Positions 31,461 to 60,826 of a DNA stretch of 64,000 nt are shown here, piece after piece (the stretch's first letter is position 1; every line of letters starts with the position of its first letter). The position numbers and the translations under genes are program-made. The stretch is from Candidatus Electrothrix rattekaaiensis (lineage in GTDB: Bacteria > Desulfobacterota > Desulfobulbia > Desulfobulbales > Desulfobulbaceae): assembly GCA_032595675.1 (NCBI GenBank), contig JAVQMD010000002.1, positions 682,001-746,000 of the forward strand, in the 5' to 3' direction. The notes under the pieces were generated by a model that made no database searches, was not told the DNA's origin, and was given only the letters and a program-made list of their open reading frames with translations.

Positions 31461-31487
31461 GTAGGGGCAGATCTGCGTGTCTGCCCT
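31461..31487. repeat. REP-like palindrome upstream of pgk
   Basis: GTAGGGGCAGA-TCTGCGTG-TCTGCCCT: the GGGCAGA and TCTGCCC arms pair. One of the clearest members of the repeat family. It lies in the 110-base spacer between gap and pgk. Confidence 0.75.
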
Positions 31488-55708: not shown

Positions 55709-55785
55709 TCAAATCCTGTGGCAACCAATGGCATTGCCAGAGAAGGAAGGCCCGCTTCGGGTGGGGGATCATGGCCAGACGGCTG
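55709..55785 (-). pseudogene. Duplicate fragment of the purL 3' end
   Basis: CCAATGGCATTGCCAG and the following ~50 bases match the purL 3' region at 57064-57124 with about ten substitutions. On the minus strand it still reads PHPKRAFLLWQCHWLPQ against PHPERAFLPWQCHWLPQE in PurL, with two or more amino-acid changes, and lacks the rest of the gene. The orphan gene at 55809-56897 lies between this fragment and the real purL end. Confidence 0.75.
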
Positions 55786-56983: not shown

Positions 56984-59900
56984 CTACTTCGTACACCACG
57001 CATAAGCATTACGGAACATCTTCAACCAAGGCGAAACTTCCAGCCCCTGCATCTCCTGCGGCAGCCAATGGCATTGCCAGGGCAGGAAGGCCCGTTCCGG
57101 GTGGGGCATTAGAGCCAGATGGCGACCGTCCGGCGAGCAGAGTCCGGCAAAACCATCCGGGGAACCGTTGGGATTAAAGGGGTACTGCTCCGTGGCGGCA
57201 CCGCTGTCGTCGGTATAGACCAGCGGTACCAGATTTTTTCCGATGACCTCAGCCCGCACTGCCGCATCCGGGAAATGCAGTTTGCCCTCGCCGTGATCCA
57301 CATGAATACCGAAAACCAGCTCGGACATCCCTTGCAGCATAATAGCCGGGCTGTCCTGCACCCGCACCGTGGCCCAGCGGGATTCAAAGCGACCTGAGTC
57401 GTTATGGATGAAGCGGGGTTGGGCCTCGGCCTCCAGACCCTGCCAAGGCACCCAGCCCAGCAGGCCGAAGAGCTGGCAGCCGTTGCAGATGCCCAGCGTA
57501 AAGGTGTCGGACCGGTTGTAGAACTCGGTAAACATGTCCTTGAGCCGTTCATTGAACAGGATGGTGGCGGCCCAGCCCTTGGCCGATTCCGGCACATCGG
57601 CGTAGGAAAAGCCGCCCACTGCGGCGATGCCCCGGAAGCCTTTCAGGTCGATGCGCCCGGCCAGCAGGTCGGTCATGGTGATATCCCAGGGTTCGAACCC
57701 GGCAGCGTAAAAGGCGGAACTCATCTCCCGGTCCGAGTTGGAACCCTCATCGCGGAGGACAGCCACCCTGGGTTTGTTCGCGGCGGTCAGCAGCGACTGA
57801 GGCGCAGGTTCCGGCTGAAAGGGCAGGTGATAGGCCGGGGCTGTGCGGTCGTAGATGGCCGCCTTTTCCGCATCAGCACAGGCCGGGTTCATCTGGAGGC
57901 GTTCCAGCTGATAGCCGGTTTCCTCCCATTCCTGCCGCAGGACGCGCATGTCCTCATTCAGGACAGGCTGTCCGTTATACCGGATATGAATCTGTTGCGC
58001 CGCAGTCGTGTTTCCCAAGAGGCGGTTGGGCACATCGGCCTTGCCGAGAAGATGTCTGACCTGCGCAATATCCGCCTGTCTGCATTCCAGCACCAGGCCC
58101 AGCTCTTCATGAAACAGGGCCGGGACGGTCTCGGCTTTTCCCTGCATTGTCATTTCCAGACCGCAGTTGCCGGCAAAGGCCATTTCCAGCAGGGTAGTGA
58201 TCAGGCCACCGTCGGAGCGGTCATGTCCGGCCAGGATCAGCCCCTGATCAATCAGCTCCTGCACGGCGGCAAAGGCCCGTCGCAACAGGGCAGGATCGTC
58301 CATATCCGGGCTTGCATCGCCAAGACTGCCCAGGGTCTGTGCCAGGGCGGAACCGCCCAGCCGTGCCTTACCCGGTGCCAGCTCAATAAGCAGCAGAGCC
58401 GAACTCGGCTCCTTGATATCCGGGGTGATGACCTTTCGGATATCGCTCATGGCTGCATAGGCGGAGATGACGAGCTGGCGCGGGGATTTCACGGTCTCCT
58501 CGCCGACCTTGGTCGCCATAGAGAGCGAGTCCTTGCCGCCGTCCACAGCCATGCCCGTGGCGATCATGGCATCGCGCATGGCCCGGGCCGCATCGTTCAT
58601 AGCCGCGCCTTCGCCGGGCAGCTTGGGCGCCCACATCCAGTTGGCCGAGCATTTCACCTGGTCCGGGTCGTCAATCCTGGCCCAGACCAGATTGGTCCAG
58701 GCTTCACCCACGGCCATGCGTGCTCCGGCAGCCGGATCAACCAGCATCTTGATCGGCTGCTCACCGATGGCCGTGGCCCCGCCGGTCAGTCCGAAATGAG
58801 ATTGCGCCACCACGGCCACATCCGCCATAGGCAGTTGAAGCGGGCCGCAGCATTGCTGCTGGACAATCAGGCCGGTGACGGCCCGGTCCACCTTATTGGT
58901 CAGGAAGCGTTTGGACCCGACCGAGACCAGACGGAGGACATTGCGGAGGTGATCGCGTACCGTAGGGGCGGCTCCCCGTGGCCGCCCTCCCTGTGCCTGC
59001 CCTTGCTCATCATTGGCAAAAGGGTAGACACAGGGGGCTACCCCTACAGGTATCCGGTTGTCCTCAAAGGTCTTCTGCGGGATATCACCCAGCACCTCGT
59101 TCAGTTCCACATCCACCGGGGTGGTGCCGTCCTGCTCATCATGGACGATGAAACGCAGATCACCGGTGACCTCGCCCAGGACTTCGCAGCCCACCTTTTC
59201 CCGCTCACAGAGAGCCTGGAACTGTTCGATATTCTCCGGGCTGATCAGGAAGCCGTTGCGCTCCTGATACTCGGCCACGTAGATCTCCAGCACCGACATG
59301 GTGGGGTCGCCGACCCGGATCTTGCGGATCTCGATCCGCCCGCCGGAATGCTCCACCAGCTCCTTGAGCACGTTGGCCGGGCCGCCCGCACCCTGGTCGT
59401 GAATCACCTCGATCAGGGTTTTATCGCCCATCTCGTTGCAGGCCCGGATAACCCGGTTCATTTTCTGCTCCATCTCGGCATCGCCGCGCTGGACCGCGTT
59501 GAAATCCAGCTCCTCAGCGTTTTCGCCCTGGAGCATGGATGAGGCAGCCCCGCCGCCGAAGCCGACCCGATAGGCCGGCCCGCCCACCTGGACAATGAGC
59601 ATCCCCTTTGCTTCCTTTTCCTTTTCCGTGTGCCGGTCATCAATCTGGCCGATACCGCCGGTGAACATGATCGGCTTGAGAAAGCCCCAGCGTTCGCCGT
59701 TGTCCAGGCGTAGGTCAAAGGAGCGGGTGAAGCCCTGGATCAGCGGCTCGCCGAACTTATTGCCATAATCCGAGGCCCCGTTGCTGGCTTCAATTTCGAT
59801 AGTCAGGGCTGAAGCTAGGTTGGAAGGGCAGGGGAGATCGGCTTCCCACGGCAGGTCGTAACCGGGAATGTGGAGGTTGGCCACGCAATAGCCTGCGGTG

Positions 59901-60826
59901 CCAGCCATGACAAAACCGCCTTTACCCGTGCCCTGCACGTCACGGATACGACCGCCGGTACCGGTCTCTGCACCGGGGAAAGGGGCCACGCCGGTGGGGA
60001 AGTTATGGGTCTCGGCAGTGAGCAGAGGATGATAGACAGCCTCAGTGGCTTCCAAGGGCGAGGGCTGCCCCGGCTCTTTCGGCAGCAGGGTGGTGATCTT
60101 GTGCCCGGCCACCACGCTGGAGTTGTCCTTAAAGGCGATCAGCGATCCCTTGGGGTTGGCAATCAGGGTTTCTTTGACCACCTGAAACAGGGTGCCTTCC
60201 TGCTCCTCGCCGTCTACCACCTGCCTGCCGCCGAAATACCCGTGCCGGGAATGCTCGGAGTTGGCGTTATTGAGATCCATGATTTCGACAATGGTGGGAT
60301 TGCGCTGATGCTTCTGCACGAAATACTCGTAGTAGAAGTTGCGATCCCGCTCATCCATCGAGATACCGGGCAGATCCAGCAGGGCATCCGTGCCCTTGCC
60401 CATGAGATCAACCTCGTAGACCGGCTCCGGCTTGACTCCGGTTGCAAAGGTGGTCAGCGGCTCCGGGTAGGGGCATTCGGTCATCCGGTCGTGGTGCGCC
60501 GCGATAAAGGCGGTCATGTCCTCACTTTCCGGCACCAGATAACGGCGGGATCGCTCGGCCCGGCTGACGCAGTCCAGTCCAATGGCCCGGCAGATCGAGA
60601 CCATGTTGGAGGACCAGGCCGTGGCAAAGTTGAGCCTCGGCCCGACCTCGACCACCCGTTCGCCTGCCAGGATCGGGGTCGGGGAAACAGTGTCGATCAG
60701 GAAACCGTCGGCCAGCAGCAGGCGCAGCTGGTGCAGTTCCTGGTCAGTCAGGGTGCGGGAGGATTCTATGTTAAAGCAAAAGGCGCGGCTTGCGTCGATG
60801 CGGCGGTATAAGCGGTTGATAGGCAT
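56984..60826 (-). CDS. purL: Phosphoribosylformylglycinamidine synthase (large single-chain form)
   Basis: 1280 residues, the single-chain FGAM synthase combining PurL and PurQ functions. Visible: N-terminal linker and AIRS-type domain with SEHSRHGYFGGRQVVDGEE, TAETHNFPTGVAPFPGAETG (about 272-291), GFGGGAASSMLQGENAEELD, HDQGAGGPANVLKELVEHSG; the second half ADVAVVAQSHFGLTGGATAI, ANWMWAPKLPGEGAAMNDA and AVDGGKDSLSMATKV; and a C-terminal glutaminase with GICNGCQLFGLLGW (nucleophile Cys about 1152). A REP-like doublet codes residues about 594-622. It makes FGAM from FGAR, ATP and glutamine in purine synthesis. Confidence 0.96.
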   Translation of the reverse strand: MPINRLYRRIDASRAFCFNIESSRTLTDQELHQLRLLLADGFLIDTVSPTPILAGERVVEVGPRLNFATAWSSNMVSICRAIGLDCVSRAERSRRYLVPESEDMTAFIAAHHDRMTECPYPEPLTTFATGVKPEPVYEVDLMGKGTDALLDLPGISMDERDRNFYYEYFVQKHQRNPTIVEIMDLNNANSEHSRHGYFGGRQVVDGEEQEGTLFQVVKETLIANPKGSLIAFKDNSSVVAGHKITTLLPKEPGQPSPLEATEAVYHPLLTAETHNFPTGVAPFPGAETGTGGRIRDVQGTGKGGFVMAGTAGYCVANLHIPGYDLPWEADLPCPSNLASALTIEIEASNGASDYGNKFGEPLIQGFTRSFDLRLDNGERWGFLKPIMFTGGIGQIDDRHTEKEKEAKGMLIVQVGGPAYRVGFGGGAASSMLQGENAEELDFNAVQRGDAEMEQKMNRVIRACNEMGDKTLIEVIHDQGAGGPANVLKELVEHSGGRIEIRKIRVGDPTMSVLEIYVAEYQERNGFLISPENIEQFQALCEREKVGCEVLGEVTGDLRFIVHDEQDGTTPVDVELNEVLGDIPQKTFEDNRIPVGVAPCVYPFANDEQGQAQGGRPRGAAPTVRDHLRNVLRLVSVGSKRFLTNKVDRAVTGLIVQQQCCGPLQLPMADVAVVAQSHFGLTGGATAIGEQPIKMLVDPAAGARMAVGEAWTNLVWARIDDPDQVKCSANWMWAPKLPGEGAAMNDAARAMRDAMIATGMAVDGGKDSLSMATKVGEETVKSPRQLVISAYAAMSDIRKVITPDIKEPSSALLLIELAPGKARLGGSALAQTLGSLGDASPDMDDPALLRRAFAAVQELIDQGLILAGHDRSDGGLITTLLEMAFAGNCGLEMTMQGKAETVPALFHEELGLVLECRQADIAQVRHLLGKADVPNRLLGNTTAAQQIHIRYNGQPVLNEDMRVLRQEWEETGYQLERLQMNPACADAEKAAIYDRTAPAYHLPFQPEPAPQSLLTAANKPRVAVLRDEGSNSDREMSSAFYAAGFEPWDITMTDLLAGRIDLKGFRGIAAVGGFSYADVPESAKGWAATILFNERLKDMFTEFYNRSDTFTLGICNGCQLFGLLGWVPWQGLEAEAQPRFIHNDSGRFESRWATVRVQDSPAIMLQGMSELVFGIHVDHGEGKLHFPDAAVRAEVIGKNLVPLVYTDDSGAATEQYPFNPNGSPDGFAGLCSPDGRHLALMPHPERAFLPWQCHWLPQEMQGLEVSPWLKMFRNAYAWCTK
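58962..59047. repeat. REPIN-like inverted doublet inside purL
   Basis: Two family members in inverted orientation. GTAGGGGCGGCT-CCCCGTG-GCCGCCC at 58962-58988, and on the minus strand GTAGGGGTAGCC-CCCTGTG-TCTACCC covering 59022-59047, are separated by about 33 bases. Both are themselves imperfect palindromes. The 86 bases are read through in frame as part of PurL (VGVAPCVYPFANDEQGQAQG and GRPRGAAPTV). Confidence 0.8.

Follow-up and report, generated by a model that had tools for sequence, protein, structure and literature searches.

REPs are short, non-autonomous elements that presumably depend on RAYT transposases for their movement. D. alkenivorans, one of the hosts named below, is presumably Desulfatibacillum, a sulfate reducer. 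Members of the GTAG superfamily are defined as palindromes of 20 to 40 bp with a GTAG tag at one end and, in the portions of the source considered here, are listed in D. alkenivorans and G. uraniireducens (PMC3733652). The same portions of that paper (Di Nocera et al. 2013) describe GTAG REPs, many of them dimers, that lie in frame within conserved genes and amount to 20 to 30 residues; the targets include recB-type and RNA helicase genes, flexible linkers or loops are suggested as the sites, and recB of two Xanthomonas species carries different REPs at about the same site (PMC3733652). Among openly licensed papers, we found no report of in-frame REPs in cable bacteria. The excerpts considered from cable-bacteria genome papers make no mention of palindromes, transposition, purL or MITE, and the excerpt on a closed Electronema genome mentions unspecified "genomic repeats" (PMC10030654).

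The window, i.e., the whole stretch of 64,000 nucleotides that was analysed, belongs to a genome of 4.48 Mb in five contigs that is 96% complete. By sequence, the closest named genome is that of a Desulfobulbaceae MAG (93%), and Candidatus Electrothrix gigas comes next among the named members of the genus (89%); the host is therefore regarded as a cable bacterium of the genus Candidatus Electrothrix. In the following, labels with G denote the genomes compared (G000 is the window genome and G002 is Electrothrix gigas), and labels with L denote individual loci. The purL gene of the window and the parts of its insert are as follows.

56984 to 60826, minus strand: purL, phosphoribosylformylglycinamidine synthase, 1280 aa, with the ORF open through the insert; assigned from Pfam and solved relatives
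58962 to 59047, no strand: REPIN of two GTAG-type REPs with the tags outward; 86 bases, corresponding to PurL residues 594-622
59022 to 59047, minus strand: REP 1 in the gene direction, X-left arm, GTAGGGGTAGCCCCCTGTGTCTACCC, encoding VGVAPCVYP; pattern match
59003 to 59021, minus strand: spacer TTTTGCCAATGATGAGCAA, with the core GCCAATGATGA[AG]CAA
58989 to 59002, minus strand: GGGCAGGCACAGGG, the apparent leftover of an Electrothrix gigas-type right REP (X-right), compared by eye
58962 to 58987, plus strand: REP 2 in the gene direction, Y-right arm, encoding GRPRGAAPT, with letters identical to those of G003 and G006

The original prediction had placed two head-to-head REP palindromes inside purL, read through as about 29 residues between two conserved blocks, and each of these points was borne out. 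Each arm fits the tagged pattern GTAGGGGYRRNYCCNNRTGNYYRCCC without a single mismatch, the REP-encoded peptide of residues 594-622 is VGVAPCVYPFANDEQGQAQGGRPRGAAPT, and the flanking blocks are EDNRIP before the insert and VRDHLRNVL after it. When up to 3 mismatches are allowed, the window holds three REP matches, whereas 100 shuffles gave 0.04 on average and 1 at most. Each purL arm is a palindrome of 20-40 bp with the GTAG tag at one end, as in the definition of the GTAG REPs, and the arrangement of two opposed REPs at a short distance makes the segment a REPIN. In terms of Pfam best stretches, the insert is located between AIRS_C (ending at residue 561) and the FGAR-AT PurM_N-like domain (starting at 638). 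Solved relatives of the enzyme include 9n9w and 1t3t, and the best PDB relative, chain 9n9w_A, has 16 residues fewer at the insert position. The AlphaFold model of residues 200-1000 is of low confidence overall (mean pLDDT 66.5, with 253 of 801 residues below 50), and the pLDDT is 41-46 over the REP part and 75 and 87 in the adjoining blocks. The surface loop that had been proposed has indirect support from the position between Pfam domains, and the structure model is weak at this place.

The REP family had been described as local and is better called genome-wide. The window has one further match (31461-31486), and the genome search that had been suggested, run with up to 3 mismatches, returned 96 + 89 = 185 matches over the 4.48 Mb, against 0 + 1 for the reversed pattern, so that the doublet has many relatives at high, dispersed copy number. 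At up to 2 mismatches, there are 40 to 247 matches per genome in seven other members of the genus, 4 to 37 in three genomes of the sister genus and 0 to 7 in five other members of the family. A second REP type, the perfect palindrome GTAGGGGCRRTTCRYGAAYYGCCCCTAC, is present in 38 copies in the window genome and 48 copies in G016 (up to 2 mismatches). Among the matches listed, the window genome has 132 clusters (133 sites if the second HrpA site described below is counted separately); they are mostly extragenic, with 111 outside any ORF of at least 150 aa and 21 inside, and the plain +- doublet is the commonest form (41 of 132). A search for a RAYT, likewise suggested, yielded three ORFs above the 80-bit cut-off of the NCBIfam family NF047646, namely L068 (202 bits), L065 (84.5 bits) and L066 (83.9 bits), and L067 falls below it at 69 bits. 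A REP with 2 mismatches is located about 120 bases past the open frame of L066, and no REP at up to 4 mismatches was found in the stretches around L065, L067 and L068. As separate observations, the REP at 31461-31486 of the window, which has 1 mismatch, extends across the end of an ORF of 201 aa in the same reading direction, and a perfect GTAGGGGCGACCGGCCGGTCGCCCCTAC palindrome is situated some 0.3 kb upstream of an ORF for an IS200/IS605-type transposase (L064, 1131-1935).

The linker between the two PurL blocks was compared across relatives. A PurL-type match was present in 54 genomes, and the linker reading covered 30 loci and 8 further stretches; the matches outside the reading were mainly of 28-41% identity, of another PurL type, or partial, and the comparison excludes G005, which does not cover the linker, and L145, in which the linker pattern was unmatched. 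Of the best 80 named PurL loci, 79 had readable linkers, with 54 residues in 61 and 53 residues in 15, compared with 70 residues in the window; the short connector expected in orthologues is therefore the rule (76 of 79). The three longer linkers among the named loci (55, 57 and 65 residues) are all REP-bearing and come from Electrothrix or close kin, which agrees with an insertion particular to a lineage, albeit one that extends beyond a single species. REPs occur in the PurL linker of five of the seven genus genomes with a readable linker, the window genome included. In the sister genus, they occur in G016 and in each of the two purL copies of G026. Doublets are found in the window, G002 and G006, and three consecutive REPs are found in G003, where the stretch measures 78 residues (74 from a start four residues later). 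G001 has the perfect palindrome GGTTCGCGAACC, G016 and the complete purL of G026 have the perfect palindrome AATTCATGAATT, and the second, 5'-truncated purL of G026 has another doublet; i.e., at least four REP forms occupy one PurL linker across Electrothrix and the sister genus. The single-REP linkers exceed the normal length by only 1-4 residues, which indicates that the REP occupies the place of the native linker. The proposed in-frame entry of a mobile repeat is thus supported, but not as the simple addition of a loop, because the native linker is replaced.

The PurL linkers of G004 and G007 contain no recognisable REP (best match 17/26), and the letters of G007 are those of G004 as far as the next conserved block. 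An origin of this linker from a decayed REP was considered but is not significant, with 30 and 13 of 300 shuffles as good. In G034 (L157, 1-220), the same linker passes into tandemly repeated palindromic units of 23 bases (CTTGGTG...CACCAAG) that are not of the GTAG type, and the array is cut off by the contig end.

Since assemblies tend to fail at repeats, we considered whether the insert marks a pseudogene or an assembly error. Some purL debris is indeed present: positions 55714-55783, downstream of purL, are a 70-base copy of its 3' end (57054-57123) with 84% identity, a similar remnant occurs in G005, and G026 has its 5'-truncated second purL, all of which makes an old tandem duplication of purL likely. 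Because of its truncation, the second G026 copy may have an open frame that is not under selection. The frame of the window gene, on the other hand, is unbroken through all 1280 aa, and no other full-length purL match occurs in this genome, which is 96% complete; full-length relatives in the genus are 88-94% identical, and related inserts are also found in the separate assemblies G001, G002, G003, G006, G016 and G026. We therefore give this explanation hardly any credence.

The position of the insert is shared to the nucleotide. In seven of the eight REP-bearing purL copies, the GTAG tag starts 21 bases past the same Phe codon and in the same frame. The exception is G001, in which the tag is at 28, i.e., 7 bases further, in another frame and with a different REP. 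The spacer core GCCAATGATGA[AG]CAA was found, among the loci compared, only in the purL genes of the window species, G002 and G003. In a PurL tree calculated with the linker removed, the sister genus (G016, G026) adjoins Electrothrix, within which (G004, G007) stand against G002, (G000, G001) and (G006, G003); the latter five are moderately supported, and the G003 row covers 26% of the columns. When the letters are compared by eye, G002 has one REPIN (X) and G006 another (Y), in G003 the left arm of X and its spacer precede the whole of Y, and in the window the same left arm and spacer are succeeded by 14 bases from the right arm of X and then by the right arm of Y. The insert in the window purL looks like a mosaic of two REPINs, and these letters suggest a joined X-Y ancestor that was trimmed by recombination between like arms.

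We consider it very probable that a REPIN entered purL in frame at a domain joint, replaced the native linker, and has been carried as a tolerated passenger that was exchanged over time. A GTAG REPIN would have inserted in frame at the joint between AIRS_C and the second PurM-like domain, and the REP would have taken the place of the native linker before Electrothrix and the sister genus split. Exchange, nesting or trimming would then have occurred several times, with a second REPIN presumably joining the first and recombination between like arms yielding the mosaic of the window. The frame would have been retained because PurL is needed, the peptide itself being a tolerated passenger, i.e., selfish DNA. 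The identical start nucleotide in seven of eight copies from two genera implies that one REP was probably there before the split, and its presence in the common ancestor requires a loss in G004 and G007, which have none. G001 is the sister of the window species on the PurL tree, yet has a different REP at another position and in another frame, which is compatible with either a separate insertion or a wholesale replacement. As regards mobility, the observations consist of differences between species.

The same exceptions could point to several independent insertions at one spot, either through a target preference of the transposase or because only this spot is tolerated. The number of REP forms at the linker, the deviating position and frame in G001 and the REP-less linkers of G004 and G007 fit such a history, whereas the identical start in seven copies with differing REP types and the private spacer common to G000, G002 and G003 argue against it; a strict target preference could likewise produce common boundaries. 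We regard repeated insertion as possible but doubtful, and an early REP that was later exchanged as the better account of the linker.

Purine biosynthesis is not the only conserved function with such an insert. Among the matches listed, at least 8 in-frame internal REP sites are found in at least 7 Pfam-supported conserved genes of the window genome: purL, a nadE-type NAD synthase, an hrpA-type helicase (twice), recB, hypF, a CobD-CobQ fusion and an AAA helicase, where the names nadE and hrpA were assigned from the Pfam content. Three REP-spanning ORFs without a Pfam family (L160, L189 and L197) are excluded from this count, as are further ORFs of at least 150 aa with REPs (L014, L167, L169, L170, L173 (twice), L185, L191, L265, L281 and the one at window 31461), in which most of the REPs are near the ORF end. 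Seven of the eight sites in the matches listed lie outside Pfam stretches, where 2.2 are expected (P = 1.8e-4), and six of seven do so when the poorly covered helicase is omitted (P = 2.1e-4); the test is restricted to Pfam-family genes and to the best Pfam stretches, without the second AIRS_C stretch of PurL, and since these stretches were taken from the very proteins that bear the REPs, an insert may shorten the domain match. Six of these eight sites are flanked by two Pfam domains, and the helicase site is ahead of the first Pfam stretch of its protein. The exception is the CobD-CobQ fusion, which has a single REP within the aminotransferase part. Peptides of the type RGE..CS...GQ..G.APT occur in four unrelated proteins. 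For the nadE, hypF and hrpA types, the linkers at these places are shorter in orthologues from other genera of the family, and also in NadE of G004, G007, G016 and G034 and in HypF of G016; no match to NadE, HypF or HrpA was found in the G026 genome. As a side observation, the REP part of NadE has translated matches at dozens of places in G001, G002, G004, G006 and G007, some of them 62-75% identical and within open frames that span 1409 to 2077 codons; further in-frame REPs are therefore probable.

Site 1 of HrpA repeats the pattern of the purL linker. The window species, G002, G003, G006 and G034 have a REPIN there, G016 has a single palindrome, and G001, G004 and G007 have decayed tags; in all six of the compared copies that retain GTAGGGG, the tag starts at base 2 of one and the same Cys codon. 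With respect to independent insertions, the REPIN of Electrothrix and G034 against the single palindrome of G016 would be in their favour, but the common base in the Cys codon argues against them. We tentatively propose, somewhat short of even confidence, that the domain joints of conserved enzymes are lasting docking sites of REPINs in cable bacteria, at which a REP, once resident, offers a pad for the landing or recombination of unrelated REPs that arrive later; the different palindromic repeat of G034 at the PurL joint would suit this view. If so, the linkers of PurL and HrpA have been repeatedly rewritten by mobile DNA, and the linkers of the genus are partly selfish DNA.

The tolerance of these inserts is consistent with their reading frames. 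Among the matches listed, the 41 doublets are open in 31 (phase 0), 30 (phase 1) and 1 (phase 2) cases on one strand and in 29, 28 and 4 cases on the other; in the third phase, which is nearly closed, the GTAG tag reads TAG. Persistence would rest on two conditions, namely that a REPIN usually has no stops in two of the three frames per strand and that it occupies a domain joint; this filter also accounts for most of the remaining in-frame REPs in the window genome. The pN/pS values of the REP parts are 0.58 (HrpA site 1), 0.75 (HrpA site 2), 0.96 (HypF) and 0.71 (PurL), with intervals that include 1, and those of the strongly constrained flanks are 0.06 to 0.19; the segments are short, the intervals are wide, the bootstrap ignores relatedness, and the REP parts of HypF and HrpA site 2 contain some non-REP residues. 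Codons that are nearly neutral fit a passenger in a joint of low importance to the protein. A function of the peptide was considered and is disfavoured by pN/pS values near 1, although the intervals are wide. Separately, silent differences between species are fewer in the REP parts than in the flanks in all four sets (0.14 compared with 0.41 for PurL), which could reflect recent exchange or constraint at the DNA level.

The insert might instead be useful, e.g., as a strong mRNA hairpin that, at a domain border, slows the ribosome and aids the folding of the two halves, or through a role of the peptide. The RNA of the purL insert folds strongly (-47.4 kcal/mol, z -3.3), as do five further REP-bearing linkers (z -4.2 to -9.5), compared with z -0.3 for the ordinary linker of G027, and the preponderance of sites between two Pfam domains, with one more outside any, would suit such a role. 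However, the G004 linker, shared by G007, folds in no special way (z -0.4), the codons of the REP parts are nearly neutral, and the tag at HrpA site 1 has decayed in G001, G004 and G007 while the gene is still open; the placement is moreover explained by the tolerance of linkers without any function. We consider a useful insert improbable, and the tolerated passenger remains our reading.

The purL insert is a clear case of mobile DNA that has become a portion of a conserved biosynthetic enzyme and that takes varied forms among living relatives. It suggests a survival filter for mobile DNA in genes that consists of stop-free frames and a domain joint, and the genus provides a natural test set for the tolerance of domain linkers and for exchange between REPINs inside coding DNA. 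It also calls for caution, as odd loops in cable-bacteria proteins may be REP-derived rather than adaptive.

Compared with described systems, the purL segment shares with REPINs the inverted REP pair, the short spacer, the many copies and the presence of a RAYT in the genome. REPINs are known mainly between genes, and that of purL differs in being translated. In-frame REPs in cable bacteria and serial turnover at one linker nucleotide appear to be new, and purL, the nadE type and hypF are new targets as far as the literature was compared, which includes the intragenic GTAG REPs in part. Like the palindromic elements of Rickettsia (RPE), the REPs are translated in frame inside genes that are likely to work, but the host group is another one, and the intragenic RPE-4 and RPE-6 of R. 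conorii are, in the portions of the source considered, of the CGTC rather than the GTAG type (PMC3733652). The intragenic GTAG REPs are the closest relatives: in the same portions of that study, they are the same tagged palindromes, form dimers, lie in frame and target recB-type and RNA helicase genes, and neither cable bacteria nor, among the named genes, purL, nadE or hypF are mentioned (PMC3733652). The present analysis goes beyond those portions (PMC3733652) in that several REP forms share one nucleotide position across two genera, two REPINs appear to be combined in a mosaic, and the native linker is replaced; a test of domain placement and the rates of codon change are added as well.
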